Source of the DNA: Desulfuromonadales bacterium
GTDB lineage: Bacteria; Desulfobacterota; Desulfuromonadia; Desulfuromonadales; UBA2294
DNA: 6,028 nt
Assembly: GCA_030591795.1 (NCBI GenBank)
Contig: JAUVAJ010000124.1
Coordinates: 1-6,028 of the forward strand
Direction: 5' to 3'
Shown here: piece by piece, positions 1 through 6,028 of the stretch
Layout: every line of letters begins with the position of its first letter
Position numbering within the stretch: the first letter of the stretch is position 1
Program-made: the position numbers and the translations under genes
The notes under the pieces: generated by a model
Told to the model about the DNA's origin: nothing
Database searches by the model: none
What the model saw: only the letters and a program-made list of their open reading frames with translations

Positions 1-948
1 GAACGGGTCGTTGGCCAAACCGTTCGGGCCACCGGCGCTGGTATCGGTTGGCGGGTAACCGTGACATGAATCACACGCCTTCGGTTTGAAACCTTCTTTA
101 TGCTGGTGACAGACCATACAATCAGCCTGGTTATAGTGGGCAGGATCACCGGCAGCGGTCATATTGTAGCCGTGATACTCGACACCATCGGTCTTGGCAG
201 CATCATAAGTATGACAAGCTTCACAGACGTTGCTCGACTGGGTCTTATCAGCACGGGAATCGTCACCAAAATCGGATGAACCTTCGCGCACGTCTTGAAA
301 ACTGACGGTACCGGCACCGGCCTCAATCGGGAATTGATCAGATCCGTTCGGAGCGGCAAAGGTCGCGTTGACCCGTTTGATGTTACCGGTGTTTCTCGCG
401 TGGCAGGTGCCACAGGTAAACTCACCGTATTTACTGCCGGCAATACCCCAGCCACCATCACCTGACCAACGTGTCGAATCAGTCGAAAGGGAGCTGTGAA
501 CCAAAGGGTTATATACAGGAACGATATTAACAAGAAGGGTTTTCTCAAAAGTGTTTGAGGTGCCGTCGGTAGTCTCGATACGAACTTCATAGACACCGTC
601 GGCATTGTTATCATTAGGCAGTGCGATATCGATCACACCATCTGTCAACGTCAGATCGCTGCCAGAGACCGAGAAAACGGCATCATCAGCACCGGTACCG
701 ACGACAACATAGGTAAAGGTGTCGCCGTTATCTGTATCAGTGGTCGACAAGGCACCGATCACCGTGCCGGCAGAAGTATCGGTCGTCGACATAATCTTGC
801 TCGGCGAAAGGGTAATGTCGGTCGGCACTGCTGCTACGGCATTTGATGCAACCAGAACCGCGACCATCAATAGAGCCAGCAGAGCAACAACCTTGATCGC
901 TTCAACTCGTCCACCCAAACACTTCCGAATCATCTTTGTCATACTCAT
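1..948 (-). CDS. Secreted multihaem c-type cytochrome with N-terminal cadherin-like domain (3' end beyond window)
   Basis: The frame is open from ATG 948 down to base 1, giving 316 residues, and the C-terminus lies outside the window. Residues 1-40 look like a Sec signal peptide: a basic start, a hydrophobic stretch at 20-34, and a likely cut after AVA or AVAA at 37-40. Residues about 41-145 resemble a cadherin-like beta-sandwich (PTDITLS at the start, an STTDTDNGD segment, FTYVVVG). Haem-binding CxxCH motifs follow at 179-183 (CGTCH), 242-246 (CEACH), 277-281 (CMVCH) and 292-296 (CDSCH, followed by GYPP). The last pair, with its spacing and the CHGYPP context, is typical of Geobacter/Desulfuromonas extracytoplasmic cytochromes used in electron transfer beyond the inner membrane. 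An AGGG ribosome binding site lies 8 bases before ATG 948, which favours it over the in-frame ATG at 942. The gene lies 93 bases downstream of the winged-helix gene on the same strand. The total haem number and cell location (periplasm or outer surface) cannot be seen here. Confidence 0.9.
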   Translation of the reverse strand, partial: MSMTKMIRKCLGGRVEAIKVVALLALLMVAVLVASNAVAAVPTDITLSPSKIMSTTDTSAGTVIGALSTTDTDNGDTFTYVVVGTGADDAVFSVSGSDLTLTDGVIDIALPNDNNADGVYEVRIETTDGTSNTFEKTLLVNIVPVYNPLVHSSLSTDSTRWSGDGGWGIAGSKYGEFTCGTCHARNTGNIKRVNATFAAPNGSDQFPIEAGAGTVSFQDVREGSSDFGDDSRADKTQSSNVCEACHTYDAAKTDGVEYHGYNMTAAGDPAHYNQADCMVCHQHKEGFKPKACDSCHGYPPTDTSAGGPNGLANDPF

Positions 949-999: not shown

Positions 1000-1027
1000 G
1001 ATATATCGATAAAATAAAACTATTCAA
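1000..1027 (-). promoter_or_regulatory. Possible sigma-70 promoter for the cytochrome gene
   Basis: On the minus strand, TTGAAT (1027-1022) and TATATC (1005-1000) are separated by 16 bases, each matching four of six consensus positions. The site lies in the 93-base gap between the winged-helix gene and the cytochrome, so the cytochrome could be transcribed independently of the upstream leader RNA. The gap is AT-rich, so a chance match is quite possible. Confidence 0.3.
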
Positions 1028-1041
1028 TTCATTCAGAATGT

Positions 1042-1443
1042 TCAGTTAGCGGCAGCGTCACAGCTGCAGCGCTTATCATCTTCCTGTATTTCGTTCTGCA
1101 TCAAGCAGCAGAGATTTTCGATCAGGTCACTACACTTTTCGGTCGGAAAAACTACAACCTGCTTACGATTAATCAGACCTTGTGATGTATAGAGCAACTC
1201 GTAGCCCCGGCCAGGTGTGGATAGAAGTTTAACGTTACGACTGACCGAACCCTGTGGCATGCCGAGGTACTCCATAAGATCCTGCATGCTGACTCCCGGT
1301 TGCTGGATGACCGCGAGGAGCAGAGCAATATGCTGGATCGGCAAATCCTTGTTCACTTCCGTGCGCAAACAAGTGATAACGTCAGATAGTTTGGTTATAT
1401 TCTGTGTTAGTCCGGGCTTCACTTGTGCCTCATGTTGTGTCAT
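1042..1443 (-). CDS. Small winged-helix (MarR-like) transcriptional regulator with cysteine-rich C-terminus
   Basis: The product is a 133-residue cytoplasmic protein. Residues about 36-76 form a helix-turn-helix resembling MarR/winged-helix regulators: a hydrophobic helix (IALLLAVI), then GVSMQDLMEYLGM, then a putative recognition helix PQGSVSRNVKLLS at about 63-75. A wing-like segment with basic residues (LINRKQVVVFPT) follows at about 90-101, and then a helix. The tail is rich in cysteine: C104, C112, C113, C126 and C128, with C25 further upstream, which could bind a metal or sense redox state (inference). I chose ATG 1443 because GGAG lies 10 bases upstream. An in-frame ATG at 1500 would add 19 basic residues but has only a weak AGAGAA before it. 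A TTG at 1527 lies inside the U-tract of the upstream terminator and is unlikely. The cytochrome follows 93 bases downstream on the same strand, making it the obvious candidate target. DNA target and ligand are unknown. Confidence 0.75.
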   Translation of the reverse strand: MTQHEAQVKPGLTQNITKLSDVITCLRTEVNKDLPIQHIALLLAVIQQPGVSMQDLMEYLGMPQGSVSRNVKLLSTPGRGYELLYTSQGLINRKQVVVFPTEKCSDLIENLCCLMQNEIQEDDKRCSCDAAAN

Positions 1444-1518
1444 TTCGCGGTCACTCCGTTTTTTCTCAGTCAAATCACGCAATCTCTTACCCCCCCTCAT
1501 TTCTCTTTTTTCGGTTGC

Positions 1519-1562
1519 AAAAAACAAAAACGGCCCAATATCCTTTTCCCGGAGTTGGGCCG
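1519..1562 (-). terminator. Intrinsic terminator between the GEMM-like leader and the regulator gene
   Basis: Read on the minus strand, CGGCCCAA (1562-1555) pairs perfectly with TTGGGCCG (1538-1531) across a 16-base loop, followed at once by T5-G-T6 (1530-1519). This is a textbook rho-independent terminator for leftward transcription. No gene lies directly upstream of it on this strand. It sits between the riboswitch-like RNA (1598-1677) and the regulator start at 1443, the position of an expression platform in a transcription-attenuating riboswitch. Bases in its loop (CCGGGA) could pair with UUCCGG at the 3' end of the aptamer, a possible switching contact. Confidence 0.75.
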
Positions 1563-1579
1563 CTTTAAATACGGCACAT

Positions 1580-1598
1580 TAGTCGTCATCACCGACTA
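1580..1598 (-). other. Linker hairpin between aptamer and terminator
   Basis: TAGTCG (1598-1593 on the minus strand) and CGACTA (1585-1580) form a perfect six-pair stem with a seven-base loop. It abuts, and shares one base with, the aptamer P1 strand, so it may compete with or stack on P1. It could be part of the switching region or simply structured linker. Confidence 0.4.
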
Positions 1599-1677
1599 CA
1601 TCTTCCGGAAGCTCCCCCCTGAGGGCGCGTGGCTTTGCGTCACCGAATTGCTCCGGCTTCGCCCTTGTCACAAATGC
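1598..1677 (-). promoter_or_regulatory. Candidate c-di-GMP-I (GEMM-type) riboswitch aptamer
   Basis: The minus-strand RNA carries AAGGGC (1666-1661), then GAA, a six-pair hairpin GCCGGA/UUCGGU closed by a GCAA tetraloop (1651-1648), then GACGCAAAGCC (1641-1631). The outer GGC/GCC pairs, the GNRA loop, the ACGCAAAGCC strand and all spacings match the first half of the GEMM-I fold as known from Vc2 of Vibrio cholerae. A second hairpin follows (GCGCCCU with GGGGAGC, 1628-1611, one G-A mismatch). Closing pairs GCAUUU (1677-1672) with AGAUGU (1603-1598) can form P1. The 3' segment UUCCGGAAG departs from the usual GUUGCCGAAG, so the call is not certain. The base equivalent to Vc2 G20 appears to be G (1664), which would favour c-di-GMP over cGAMP (inference). 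A terminator and a regulator-cytochrome unit lie downstream. Confidence 0.62.
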
Positions 1678-1701
1678 TCTTTAAATCGCCTACCAAGCGA
1701 T

Positions 1702-2090
1702 GACCAAATCTTAGTAATTACAACCCATCAAACACAGCATTAGAAATTATTAAACAATGCACTGTACTTTACTTGGCTATCTCATTAGAGCAAAAAGCAA
1801 ACCAACAATTCACTTTTGCATAAAGATTAAACAAGCGCTAACATTATAATAAATAAATGATTTTCACCTAATCACTCACTCCTGAAATGATCCGGGGGTT
1901 TTCTCCAGAAGCAATAATTGAATGACAATATCTTTTTAATGAGTATTTTACATGCGCCACGGTAGGAAATAGGCATTGAAGACTCAAAGGGGAAAAACGG
2001 TCACAGCCAGTAAAAGAATGTAGCCTTTCTGCCGACATGAAATCTAGACGGCAACAACCATTTATGTTGGAAACTTACATAATTTCTTAC
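1702..2090. other. AT-rich intergenic region without recognisable gene
   Basis: No convincing coding frame is present on either strand. The stretch must hold the minus-strand promoter for the leader RNA, but I could not pick one with confidence. On the plus strand the part from about 1980 to 2055 can form two short stems, AAAGG/CCTTT (1986-1990 with 2024-2028) and TGCCG/CGGCA (2030-2034 with 2049-2053). These could belong to a leader, but they match no RNA family I know. Confidence 0.5.
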
Positions 2091-2119
2091 TTGCCCTGCC
2101 GCGCATGGTCTTTTAGACT
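2091..2119 (+). promoter_or_regulatory. Possible promoter of the acyl-CoA ligase gene
   Basis: TTGCCC (2091-2096) and TAGACT (2114-2119) lie 17 bases apart, each with four of six sigma-70 consensus bases. Transcription would start near 2126, leaving a leader of about 26 bases that carries the GAGGTGA ribosome binding site. No operator for a fatty-acid regulator was recognised. Confidence 0.3.
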
Positions 2120-2151
2120 TAAATTGTAAACTTTATATATATGAGGTGACC

Positions 2152-4050
2152 ATGAACGATCTGGCCAATCTGACATCATTACATGATGTTTTATTACGCG
2201 CTGAGCGGGAGTATCCAGACAATGAAGCTTTCATCTACCGGGCTGGCACTGCCGAGCTGACTGTCACCTATCGCAAGTTTTATGAAGATGTTCTGCTGCT
2301 GGCAAAAGTCTTTACCGACAAGGGGATTGGCAAGGGCGACAAGGTGCTGTTTGTCTCGGACAATCGCTACGCCTGGATCGTTACCGACTTTGCCCTGATT
2401 GCTATCGGGGCGATCAACGTGCCGCGTGGCAGCGACACCCCAACCCGCGAACTCGAGTACATAATCGACCATTCCGATTGCACTTCAATGGTGATCGAAA
2501 CAATGCCGTTGTTTAAAAAGAATGAAGAACTGTTCGGTGCTAAAAAATTCAAGAATATTTTCGTTATCGAAGGTGAAGAAGAGCACAAACTGTTCAGCAA
2601 CCTTTATTGTTATAATGAACTACTCGAAAAGCGGGCCATCACGCCGTCGGACATTGAAACATTTGCCCGTCTCGGTGAAGCACTGCAACCGGACGATCCG
2701 TTCACCCTGATCTACACCTCCGGTACCACCGGCAATCCCAAGGGAGTTATCCTTACGCACACCAACATCATGTACAACGTCCGCATGATCCCGTTGGCAG
2801 TCGAATTAAAAAGAGATGATCGCTGGCTATCGGTCTTGCCAACCTGGCATATTTTTGAGCGGGCGGCCGAGTACATGGCAATCTCTTCCGGCGGCTGCAC
2901 CGTCTACTCATCGGTTAAAACTTTCTCCGCCGACCTTCAGCTATATTCACCAACCATGGTCTGCTCGGTACCACGCTTGTGGGAGGCGCTTTACAGTAAA
3001 ATCAACCATGCCCTTGAAGAACAAGGAAAAGCCAAGGTCTTCAGTCTATTGGTCACAGTATCGACCGTCTTTCGTCATAACCAGCGTAAACTGCGCGGAC
3101 AATTACCCCGCTTCAAAAAACAAAATATCAGCACTGCCCTGCCCGGCAAATTAATGGCAATACTTAAACTGGCGTTACTCGCCCTCCCCTACAAGCTGGC
3201 GCAAAAGAAGTTCGTCCTGGTGCAAGCTCGCTTCGGCGGCCGGTTGCGCCTGGCGATCAGTGGTGGCGGCAGTCTGCCAAGATATCTAGATGAATGGATC
3301 GACGCCCTCGGCATCCGGATCGTCAACGCCTACGGCATGACCGAATGTGCCCCGGCCATCACCGCGCGTGGCCTCAACTGTGAAATTTTTGGAACTATCG
3401 GACCGCCACTGCAGGGGACCGACCTGCGCATTGCCGATGAAAACGACCAGCCGGTGCCACCTGGCGTTGAAGGTGAAATCCAGGTACATGGCCCACAAGT
3501 CATGCCCGGCTACTACAAAAACGATGCCGAGAACTACAAGACCTTTACCGATGACGATTTCCTGCGCACCGGTGACCTCGGCATGCTGACCGTGACCGGC
3601 GAACTGCTCATCACCGGTCGATCCAAAGAGATCATCGTGCTAGCTTCCGGAGAAAATATTGACCCGTCACGGATCGAAGGGGCCATCACCAGTCTGCCAT
3701 TCATCAAAGACGCGGTACTGGTTGGTCAGGACCGCAAAGGCCTCGCTGCCCTGATCGTTCCAGATATCGATAAACTGAAAAAATTCACCAAAGAAAAGCT
3801 TCATCTTGGACGCTCTGACGACACTGACGGCGACTTCCTAAAAGACAGCACCATTATTAACAGCACCCGCCAGGAGATCAATCGCCTGCTGCAACCGAAG
3901 GCAGGGTTCAAGGCACATGAACGGTTGCAGAACATCAGCTTCCTCAAGGAGGATTTTAAACCGGGTGAAGAATTGACCAACACACTGAAAAAGAAGCGTC
4001 ATATCATTGAACGGCGCTATAAAGAAGTTATCGACAAGCTGTTTCACTAA
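2152..4050 (+). CDS. Long-chain fatty-acid-CoA ligase (AMP-forming acyl-CoA synthetase, FAA1/FadD15-like)
   Basis: This 632-residue cytoplasmic or membrane-associated enzyme of the ANL adenylating superfamily should activate long-chain fatty acids with ATP and CoA to acyl-CoA, for beta-oxidation or lipid synthesis. The ATP-binding loop is at 186-198 (LIYTSGTTGNPKG). The A5 motif YGMTE is at 394-398, TGD at 473-475, the hinge and A8 motif at 487-505 (ITGRSKE, then ASGENIDP), and the candidate catalytic lysine of the C-terminal domain lies in TLKKKR at 611-616. The basic and hydrophobic insert at about 305-365, before the second half of the N-terminal domain, and the length fit the long-chain (COG1022) group rather than short-chain ligases. 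I chose ATG 2152 over GTG 2146 because GAGGTGA (2143-2149) is a near-perfect ribosome binding site whose GTG belongs to that site. The gene is monocistronic: a strong terminator starts five bases after its stop. Chain-length preference cannot be read from the sequence. Confidence 0.95.
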   Translation: MNDLANLTSLHDVLLRAEREYPDNEAFIYRAGTAELTVTYRKFYEDVLLLAKVFTDKGIGKGDKVLFVSDNRYAWIVTDFALIAIGAINVPRGSDTPTRELEYIIDHSDCTSMVIETMPLFKKNEELFGAKKFKNIFVIEGEEEHKLFSNLYCYNELLEKRAITPSDIETFARLGEALQPDDPFTLIYTSGTTGNPKGVILTHTNIMYNVRMIPLAVELKRDDRWLSVLPTWHIFERAAEYMAISSGGCTVYSSVKTFSADLQLYSPTMVCSVPRLWEALYSKINHALEEQGKAKVFSLLVTVSTVFRHNQRKLRGQLPRFKKQNISTALPGKLMAILKLALLALPYKLAQKKFVLVQARFGGRLRLAISGGGSLPRYLDEWIDALGIRIVNAYGMTECAPAITARGLNCEIFGTIGPPLQGTDLRIADENDQPVPPGVEGEIQVHGPQVMPGYYKNDAENYKTFTDDDFLRTGDLGMLTVTGELLITGRSKEIIVLASGENIDPSRIEGAITSLPFIKDAVLVGQDRKGLAALIVPDIDKLKKFTKEKLHLGRSDDTDGDFLKDSTIINSTRQEINRLLQPKAGFKAHERLQNISFLKEDFKPGEELTNTLKKKRHIIERRYKEVIDKLFH

Positions 4051-4054
4051 GACA

Positions 4055-4085
4055 AAATATAGCCGCCTATCAGGCGGCTATATTT
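4055..4085. terminator. Bidirectional intrinsic terminator between converging genes
   Basis: The arms 4055-4068 and 4072-4085 are perfectly complementary (14 pairs) with a three-base loop and a GC-rich top. The A/T-rich base of the stem supplies a short U-run on both strands. It lies five bases after the acyl-CoA ligase stop and two bases after the stop of the converging broken gene, so it can end transcripts from both sides. Confidence 0.88.
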
Positions 4086-4724: not shown

Positions 4725-5003
4725 ATGAATAAAGCACCAAAAATAATCCCAATCTCTGATCTCCGCCAAAACGCAAGCGGAATCATCAAACGCCTGGCGT
4801 CTTCACACGATCCTTTGTTCATTACACAACGCGGTCGGGCTACTGCCGTGATGGTCAGCATGCAAGATTACGAACAAACTCACCACGAGTTGGAAATTTT
4901 GCGTTTACTTGCCTGTGGTGAAAAAGAGATAGAGGCAGGTGTTGGTTTCGATTTAGATACTGTGCTGGCTGACGCCGACACTCTTTTAGCAGAGCAACAA
5001 TGA
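4725..5003 (+). CDS. Type II antitoxin, Phd/YefM family
   Basis: This 92-residue protein should neutralise the toxin encoded immediately downstream and, with it, repress its own operon. Residues about 7-50 carry the Phd/YefM N-terminal DNA-binding fold: IIPISDLRQNASGIIKRL, then a short loop and PLFITQRGRATAVMVSMQDY, the usual strand-helix pattern with the ITxxGRxxAV-type strand pair. Residues about 53-92 are acidic and helical (EKEIEAG, DLDTVLADADTLL), as expected of the flexible toxin-binding tail that proteases attack. ATG 4725 is preceded by GGGAG with eight bases between. The stop overlaps the toxin start in an ATGA, so the two are translationally coupled, as is usual for such pairs. The length fits the family well. 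Confidence 0.9.
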   Translation: MNKAPKIIPISDLRQNASGIIKRLASSHDPLFITQRGRATAVMVSMQDYEQTHHELEILRLLACGEKEIEAGVGFDLDTVLADADTLLAEQQ

Positions 5004-5290
5004 AGATAGTCTTTACCCCTTCGGCGCGTGATCAATTTTTGCAAGCACTTGCCTATATCCGCCGCGACAATCCCTATGCAGCGGTTTCTTTTCGCCACAA
5101 AACCGAGAGCGTCCTTTTGCGGCTTAAGGATCACCCGGAATCAGGGCGAACACTTCCTGAATTTCCAGACAGTCACTACCGTGAAGTGATTGTCGCACCT
5201 TACCGCTTTTTCTACAGAGTCAAAAACAATGCTGTATGGATTGTGGCCGCCTGGCACGACACGCAGATACCCGAGCACCCGGAAGAATAG
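5000..5290 (+). CDS. Type II toxin, RelE/ParE superfamily
   Basis: This 96-residue protein has the compact RelE/ParE fold. An N-terminal strand (KIVFTPSAR, 2-10) leads into two helices (about 11-45) with the usual LKDHPESGRTLPEF turn at 42-55. The beta-sheet core follows with YREVIV (60-65), PYRFFYRV (67-74) and VWIVAAWHD (79-87). ParE members poison DNA gyrase, while RelE members cleave mRNA on the ribosome. The SGR-PE turn, R61-E62 and the PYRFFYRV strand look more like ParE-type proteins, but the target cannot be decided from sequence alone. The gene starts inside the antitoxin stop codon (ATGA overlap) and has no strong ribosome binding site of its own. That suggests coupled translation, which keeps antitoxin in excess. 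No key region is missing, so the pair looks intact. Confidence 0.9.
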   Translation: MKIVFTPSARDQFLQALAYIRRDNPYAAVSFRHKTESVLLRLKDHPESGRTLPEFPDSHYREVIVAPYRFFYRVKNNAVWIVAAWHDTQIPEHPEE

Positions 5291-5372: not shown

Positions 5373-6028
5373 TTGCTTCAAGTCCATGACCTGAAAACCT
5401 ATTTTTTCACCCCGAACGGCATCGTCAAAGCGGTCGACGGTATCTCCTTTTCGCTGCAAAAGGGTGAGACCATGGCATTGGTCGGCGAATCCGGCTGTGG
5501 CAAATCGGTCACCGCCCTCTCCCTGCTGCGACTGGTTCCGGAACCGGGCAAGATCGTCGGTGGCCAGATCAAATTTGACGGTGAAGATCTTCTGCACCTG
5601 ACGGAGCCGGAGATGCGCCGGGTGCGCGGCAACCGGATCGCCATGGTATTTCAGGAGCCGATGACCGCCCTCAACCCGGTGTTGCGCATCGGCGAGCAGA
5701 TCGTCGAAGTACTGTTGCAGCATCAGGACATCTCGCCGACCGATGCCATGGCTGCAAGCGTTGAATTACTGCACCAGGTCGGCATACCGTCACCGGAGCA
5801 GCGGATTCGTGAGTTCCCCCACCAGCTCTCCGGCGGATTGCGGCAGCGGGTTGTCATCGCCATGGCGCTGGCCTGTGATCCACAGCTGCTGATCGCCGAT
5901 GAGCCGACCACCGCCCTCGATGTGACTATTCAGGCGCAGATCATGGACCTGCTCGGCAACCTGCAACGCGAACGCCAGATGGCCACGCTGTTGATAACCC
6001 ACGATCTCGGGGTCGTTGCCGAATCGGC
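5373..6028 (+). CDS. Oligopeptide/dipeptide ABC transporter ATP-binding protein, OppD/DppD-like (3' end beyond window)
   Basis: The 218 residues seen here belong to an ATPase that powers peptide or nickel import with two permease subunits and a second OppF/DppF-type ATPase. The Walker A motif GESGCGKS is at 38-45. The Q-loop region [12 protein letters not shown] at 91-102 is characteristic of Opp/Dpp ATPases. The signature LSGGLRQR is at 152-159 (commonly LSGGMRQR in this group), Walker B with its glutamate ([12 protein letters not shown]) at 172-183, and the H-loop histidine at 210. Relatives are about 320-330 residues, so roughly the last third is outside. The frame is open from 5337 with no ATG before the conserved start of the domain. 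TTG 5373 gives an N-terminus ([12 protein letters not shown]) that aligns with typical family starts and has GGA seven bases upstream. The substrate cannot be told; partner genes would be expected downstream. Confidence 0.93.

Follow-up and report, generated by a model that had tools for sequence, protein, structure and literature searches.

A leader of the GEMM-I family with an incomplete P3 arm before a MarR regulator gene and a multihaem cytochrome gene in a Desulfuromonadales-type bacterium

According to the sections of PMC6366702 drawn on here, homologues of the Vc2 RNA precede tfoX orthologues in vibrios, and both directions of control occur among class I switches. For Geobacter, the excerpted text of PMC6456294 places GEMM-Ib (cGAMP) riboswitches before cytochrome genes (pgcA, OmcAHG), presents these cGAMP switches as activators of gene expression, and relates that an A20G change turned a cGAMP riboswitch c-di-GMP-selective. 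The bases in contact with the ligand are named as G20, A47, and C92 in the portion of PMC4744006 used here, where the P2-P3 interhelical pair is also described as universally conserved among GEMM RNAs. In the available part of PMC11218506, class I RNAs with a GYRA loop are described as having no tetraloop receptor.

The window analyzed here is the whole stretch of 6,028 nucleotides (contig JAUVAJ010000124.1 of assembly GCA_030591795.1). On its minus strand, a leader would head a pair of genes, presumably cotranscribed, for a MarR regulator and a cytochrome of a Desulfuromonadales-type bacterium. The features, in the order in which the minus strand is read, were as follows.

1683 to 1705, minus strand: inverted repeat GGTCATCGCTTGGTAGGCGATTT, directly 5′ of the aptamer, a possible operator or leader hairpin.
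1599 to 1676, minus strand: GEMM-I (c-di-GMP-I) aptamer, from P1 strand to P1 strand, located with RF01051, RF03167, and the alignment with L001 and L024.
1663 (G20), 1660 (position 23, a G), 1636 (A47), and 1608 (C92), minus strand: key positions of the aptamer, placed from alignments.
1642 to 1657, minus strand: P2 hairpin GCCGGA-GCAA-UUCGGU, six pairs and a GNRA/GYRA loop (covariance model, fold, and alignment).
1610 to 1634, minus strand: remnant of P3, lacking the interhelical G and the canonical proximal strand and falling eight alignment columns short of its counterparts in L001 and L024 (alignment and tallies).
1580 to 1598, minus strand: spacer hairpin UAGUCG-GUGAUGA-CGACUA in the interval between aptamer and terminator (fold).
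1519 to 1566, minus strand: intrinsic terminator, with a GC-rich stem from 1566 to 1527 and a U-rich tail (fold).
1042 to 1482, minus strand: gene of a MarR-type winged-helix regulator, 146 aa from TTG 1482 or 133 aa from ATG 1443 (PF12802).
1001 to 1015, minus strand: 15-base element ATTTTATCGATATAT between the regulator and cytochrome genes, a candidate MarR site.
1 to 948, minus strand: 5′ part of the gene of a secreted multihaem c-type cytochrome, open at the window end (CxxCH, PF14522).

The rest of the window is read from the plus strand. Upstream of the leader lies a divergent AMP-binding (acyl-CoA synthetase-like) gene at 2146-4050, directly followed at 4055-4085 by a strong symmetric hairpin which is probably the terminator of that gene and where Rfam matches stayed below the cut-off. 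Further on there are a Phd/YefM antitoxin and ParE toxin gene pair (4725-5290) and an ATPase gene of a peptide-transport-type ABC transporter (5373-6026), open at the window end.

The assignment of the leader was examined with the Rfam models. At the Rfam threshold, the scan of 1400-1900 returned RF01051 (c-di-GMP-I/GEMM-I) at 1673-1604 of the minus strand, with 38.3 bits over a gathering score of 35 (E 4.9e-6). The preliminary description had proposed a candidate GEMM-I riboswitch here from the letters AAGGGC, GCCGGA-GCAA-UUCGGU, and GACGCAAAGCC, all of which were found in the correct order and spacing; the family membership of the leader is borne out by this score, and what found no support is the working switch in this copy, owing to a defective P3 and a G at position 23. 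A P2 with a GNRA-type loop, as expected of RF01051, is in place, and the alignment gave all three ligand-contact bases. Over the whole window, a permissive Rfam scan kept RF03167 (c-di-GMP-I-GGC) at 1672-1603 of the minus strand (33.2 bits, E 5.5e-5) and dropped two overlapping clan matches of lower score; this score is below that family's own cut-off of 59 and the window has A at position 47, where the consensus has G, so that the RNA is no member of RF03167. Folding of the aptamer stretch alone was no better than that of shuffles (z 0.24; 111 of 200 as good), and the identification therefore depends on the covariance model and on orthology. The orthologous place is L001, a contig of a Desulfuromonadales MAG (Kmv16), whose aptamer at 572-649 is intact and exceeds the cut-off of RF03167 with 62.7 bits. 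Judging by descent and by the Rfam cut-off, the window RNA is most likely a GEMM-I. Such RNAs are frequent in the class, with matches over the cut-off in 256 of 277 genomes and 14 matches at E up to 1 in G001, the genome of L001, and the presence of one here is thus unremarkable in itself.

With respect to the ligand, the kept G20, A47, and C92 point to c-di-GMP. Both c-di-GMP and 3′,3′-cGAMP had been proposed for binding assays, and G20 favors the former; a cGAMP switch of the GEMM-Ib type, which needs A20, is disfavored. Over the 80 aptamers tallied below, position 20 was G in 57, A in 19, and C in 4. The GEMM-I aptamers with C20 are L024 (the same place as L077), L080, L084, and L103, and they are possibly a variant with another ligand; L024, with C at this ligand-contact base, is the MarR-linked aptamer of G135.

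The P3 arm was compared in two ways. In the alignment with L001, L024, and L025, eight columns are missing from the 3′ strand of the window's P3, corresponding to GGGTAGCC in L001 and L024, the placement of this gap being uncertain by one or two bases and an alternative alignment having a seven-base insertion at the same spot. The 5′ strand reads ACGCG in the window versus ACGGG in L001 and L024. Then 80 distinct aptamers from the fetched loci were tallied, the window counted in. Considering that they were found through covariance-model searches, the sample is biased to well-formed aptamers, and the search with a window-derived model that contributed to it is expected to enrich window-like RNAs. 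At least 8 of 10 canonical P3 pairs were present in 75 of the 80; below this value were L015, L016, L105, L116, and the window. The first four have, by reading, a recognizable 3′ strand with an extra-base shift or mismatches, and the best register of the window gives 6 of 10 pairs but lies 65 bases away from A47, too far off to be a P3. Shuffling the 3′ part still gave 8 of 10 in 11% of cases, which makes this tally a guide and no proof, not sharp alone. An earlier tally of seven pairs was dropped as too weak, 6 of 7 being reached by 36% of shuffled 3′ halves.

Base 83, which precedes the proximal P3 strand and which we take to be the interhelical G in Vc2 numbering, was G in 77 of the 80 aptamers. 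The exceptions were L015, L115, and the window; by reading, the first two retain the G in another register and the window does not. A P3 helix with the G of the P2-P3 interhelical pair, a defining feature of RF01051, is therefore missing from the window (6 of 10 pairs, no G83), which lowers the claim of a working riboswitch and leaves that of ancestry unaffected. Position 23 was A in 78 aptamers, T in one (L054), and G in the window only. The distance from A47 to C92 was 28 in the window by manual count, against a minimum of 29 among the 75 well-paired aptamers, and arm length alone is not its anomaly. Unlike the 79 others, the window alone appears to have no P3 strand bearing the interhelical G, a comparison made partly by reading. 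It was also considered whether a tetraloop receptor had been lost, a criterion said to apply to the type I kind only. A loose pattern of CUA after P3 was present in 16 of 22 GAAA-loop aptamers and absent from 48 of 56 GYRA-loop ones, and its matches in the window and L001 were CUCA, which the loose pattern tolerates. This reading was abandoned, the MarR-linked relatives being GYRA-looped too and having no clear receptor. As the alignments place it, the lost part is the proximal P3 strand including the interhelical G. A covariance model built from the window only was run over the 277 genomes and gave matches in 179; 19 stretches, mostly around shorter matches, were retrieved and read together with the window-model loci, and among the matches listed and read there was no P3 arm like that of the window.

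The surroundings of the lesion are well conserved. Between the window and L001, the leaders are identical in 145 of 177 gap-free columns (17 gaps) and the MarR genes in 291 of 441 positions, and the higher conservation of the leader indicates that it has been under selection. On this comparison, constraint acted on the leader during most of the divergence of the two lineages, and the lesion would be recent or tolerated. The kept pocket bases, P1, P2, and terminator argue against a long-standing decay.

An intrinsic terminator had been described about 35 bases beyond the aptamer, and indeed a terminator stem begins 33 nt past the end of the P1 3′ strand (1599). The 78-nt stretch 1600-1523 of the minus strand folded with -29.1 kcal/mol (z -3.4), and none of 200 shuffles was as good; a simple terminator scan did not pick up this hairpin. 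L001 and L024 have a similar hairpin in the corresponding position. We also calculated the complementarity between the 3′ end of the aptamer and the 5′ side of the terminator in 34 leaders, namely those with a script-detected terminator, the window excluded and the places of L001 and L024 entering only under other locus ids, if at all. The pairs belonging to the same leader reached 17.2 against 15.8 in permuted pairs (sd 0.42, 0 of 1000), an excess that would suit an antiterminator broken by ligand binding. For single leaders, shuffles as good were 73 of 500 in the window, which is weak, 34 of 500 in L001, and 2 of 500 in L024, whose terminator piece pairs equally strongly with the tails of the window and L001. 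Ligand-controlled termination before the regulator and the surface protein is the best reading for the intact relatives, and we do not commit it to on or off.

The small DNA-binding protein announced behind the terminator proved to be of the MarR type: its MarR_2 domain (PF12802) scored 35.7 bits against a cut-off of 27, and the family profile matched the MarR-like structures 3bpv and 3bpx with E values of 3.3e-4 and 3.7e-4, NCBIfam giving no match. Taking into account that the relatives start with MRDL and that L001 has GTG at the equivalent place, translation probably starts at TTG 1482. The secreted multihaem cytochrome also held up, with four CxxCH motifs, 26.6 bits for PF14522 (Cytochrome_C7) against 24.8, and an N-terminus that looks signal-like by eye. 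No viral relative of the cytochrome was found, there was no plasmid match, and a DNA pattern had no match in viral contigs.

The protein search found 37 regulator proteins including the window's own, and an alignment-based scan of genome contigs gave six regulator loci, the best being L001, with a regulator 64% identical. A relative occurred in 14 of the 277 genomes of the class, at 17 places in all. Leaving out L038, on the same contig as L023, Rfam was applied to the other 16, and a GEMM aptamer was found upstream of the regulator in three, L023 (the place of L001), L024, and L025 (that of L002). Permissive rescans found no aptamer in nine other regulator loci or in the remaining four, L003 to L006, nor in the viral-collection loci L007 and L008. 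In L001 the order is aptamer, terminator, regulator, and then a secreted protein with one CxxCH; at 3-170, upstream of the aptamer, the contig starts with the remains of a second, paralogous MarR gene. In each of the three relatives with aptamer and MarR gene, the next gene encodes a secreted protein, and two of these show CxxCH within the available stretch.

In eleven loci (the window, L001, L002, L003, L004, L005, L024, L026, L028, L030, and L031), the gene behind the regulator has an N-terminus that looks signal-like by eye. Within the available stretch, the downstream gene has 4 CxxCH in the window, 1 in L001, 25 in L002, 13 in L003, and 2 in L026; the other six have none before the stretch ends, the genes running off it. 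Pfam detected cytochrome domains in L002 and L003, Big_5 in L001, and MAM in L031; the downstream genes of L004, L005, L024, L026, L028, and L030 matched no family. The arrangement was not seen by eye in L007, L033, L034, L035, L036, and L039, and the stretch of L006 stops shortly after the regulator. In L026, L028, and L031, a gene upstream of the MarR relative encodes a sigma-54 activator, and there is no aptamer. It is as if the upstream control of the MarR unit were exchangeable, with some species relying on a riboswitch and others on a sigma-54 activator gene. More distant regulator relatives were found in contigs of the viral collection or by integrase-like genes (L008 at 2050-3515, L007, L034, L035, L036, and L039); only in L008, where the relative lies beside a phage integrase, is this neighbor backed by Pfam. 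After other GEMM RNAs, the first ORFs encode fn3 (14), PKD, Ig-like, GGDEF (3), and other domains, and no MarR family is among the 25 of 106 families listed for the 58 other first ORFs; these were picked by script out of 61, the three MarR-linked loci omitted, with a crude rule that took a different frame or gene for L024 and L002.

Two elements shared with L001 are candidate MarR sites. The inverted repeat GGTCATCGCTTGGTAGGCGATTT is common to both leaders except for two loop bases, with a longest common run of 12, where 500 shuffles gave no run above 10, and has one match in G001 with up to three mismatches allowed. The element ATTTTATCGATATAT forms an identical run in the same intergenic place of L001, the longest run in 500 shuffles being 13; in G001 there are one exact 14-mer and four further places at one mismatch (control one). 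Neither L024 nor L025 has the candidate-site core TATCGATA, which does occur in the unrelated loci L018 and L042 and is thus neither general nor unique to the unit.

Considering all of the above, we favor with moderate confidence the reading that an ancestral GEMM-I switch with a terminator is damaged here in its P3, binds c-di-GMP weakly or not at all, and is left as a fixed attenuator. In the ancestor, a class I c-di-GMP riboswitch would have been coupled to the intrinsic terminator. In the intact relatives, the ligand at the P1/P2/P3 junction would set the balance between termination and read-through into the genes of the MarR and surface proteins, and the MarR protein may add local control, perhaps via the element between both genes; it is the gene order that suggests this second layer. 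In the window, a P3 without the strand of the interhelical G and most of the canonical proximal pairing would give a weak or absent ligand response, and the terminator would then behave as a fixed attenuator. Ligand control is thus probably weak or lost in the window and intact in the relatives. Against this reading, the window has kept its pocket bases, P1, P2, and terminator, its distance from A47 to C92 falls one base short of the minimum among the well-paired aptamers, the lesion is seen in one contig, and the window RNA is still over the RF01051 cut-off (38.3 versus 35).

That same score agrees with an unlikely but serious alternative, in which the RNA is still a c-di-GMP switch through a rebuilt short P3 (AGC/GCU plus CCC-UCAG-GGG), without the interhelical pair and perhaps with lower affinity. 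The retention of G20, A47, C92, P1, P2, and the terminator and the leader being more conserved than the MarR gene would fit it, and class I RNAs with a GYRA loop reportedly manage without the receptor (PMC11218506); yet the interhelical pair is said in PMC4744006, as excerpted, to be universal, and the matches listed and read held no similar arm. We find it more doubtful that sequencing or assembly mistakes account for the missing bases and that the true locus is intact. All the surroundings of the lesion are conserved and the evidence comes from a single metagenomic contig, the only one in which this exact regulator is known, but a clean loss of about eight bases with two odd substitutions nearby is atypical of base-calling error and the adjacent MarR frame is intact. 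Quite improbable, too, is the bolder combination of a short rebuilt P3 that, lacking the interhelical pair, still senses c-di-GMP with altered affinity or kinetics before a unit whose upstream control is exchangeable. Chance resemblance, with no riboswitch ancestry, is hardly credible at all and was discarded: the aptamer folding no better than shuffles would allow it, but the Rfam cut-off is exceeded and L001 has an orthologous full aptamer at the equivalent place.

Should the intact relatives function in the way that their anatomy indicates, c-di-GMP would govern surface cytochromes together with a dedicated local regulator before them, and extracellular electron transfer would be subject to a second layer of control. 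The window copy would serve as a naturally occurring test of the idea that a GEMM RNA can give up its P3 arm with the rest of the leader conserved. A riboswitch before a regulator is already known, and the unit of a MarR plus a surface protein is the more interesting part; in titles and abstract openings of the open-licence literature we found no description of such a unit with exchangeable upstream control.

By comparison with the GYRA-loop kind of GEMM-I (RF01051), the window has in common the score over the cut-off, P1, P2 with its GCAA loop, G20, A47, and C92, and the downstream terminator, and differs in a P3 without the interhelical G and the canonical proximal strand and in the G at position 23. 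With the Vc2-type RNAs of tfoX, it shares a class I c-di-GMP RNA before a regulator gene; the regulator family is a different one, the consulted sections of PMC6366702 mention no cytochrome gene behind it, and the class I switches of V. cholerae are presented there as not based on termination, unlike the terminator leader of the window. The Geobacter GEMM-Ib switches, which come from a related group, resemble it in that a GEMM RNA with a terminator precedes cytochrome genes; they have A20 and sense cGAMP, where the window has G20, and in the cases described in the excerpts of PMC6456294 the RNA immediately precedes the cytochrome genes, with no MarR gene between. The closest system is the L001 unit, with aptamer, terminator, a 64% identical MarR, and a secreted haem-motif protein behind; its aptamer is intact, and its downstream secreted protein is a different one (Big_5, one CxxCH).
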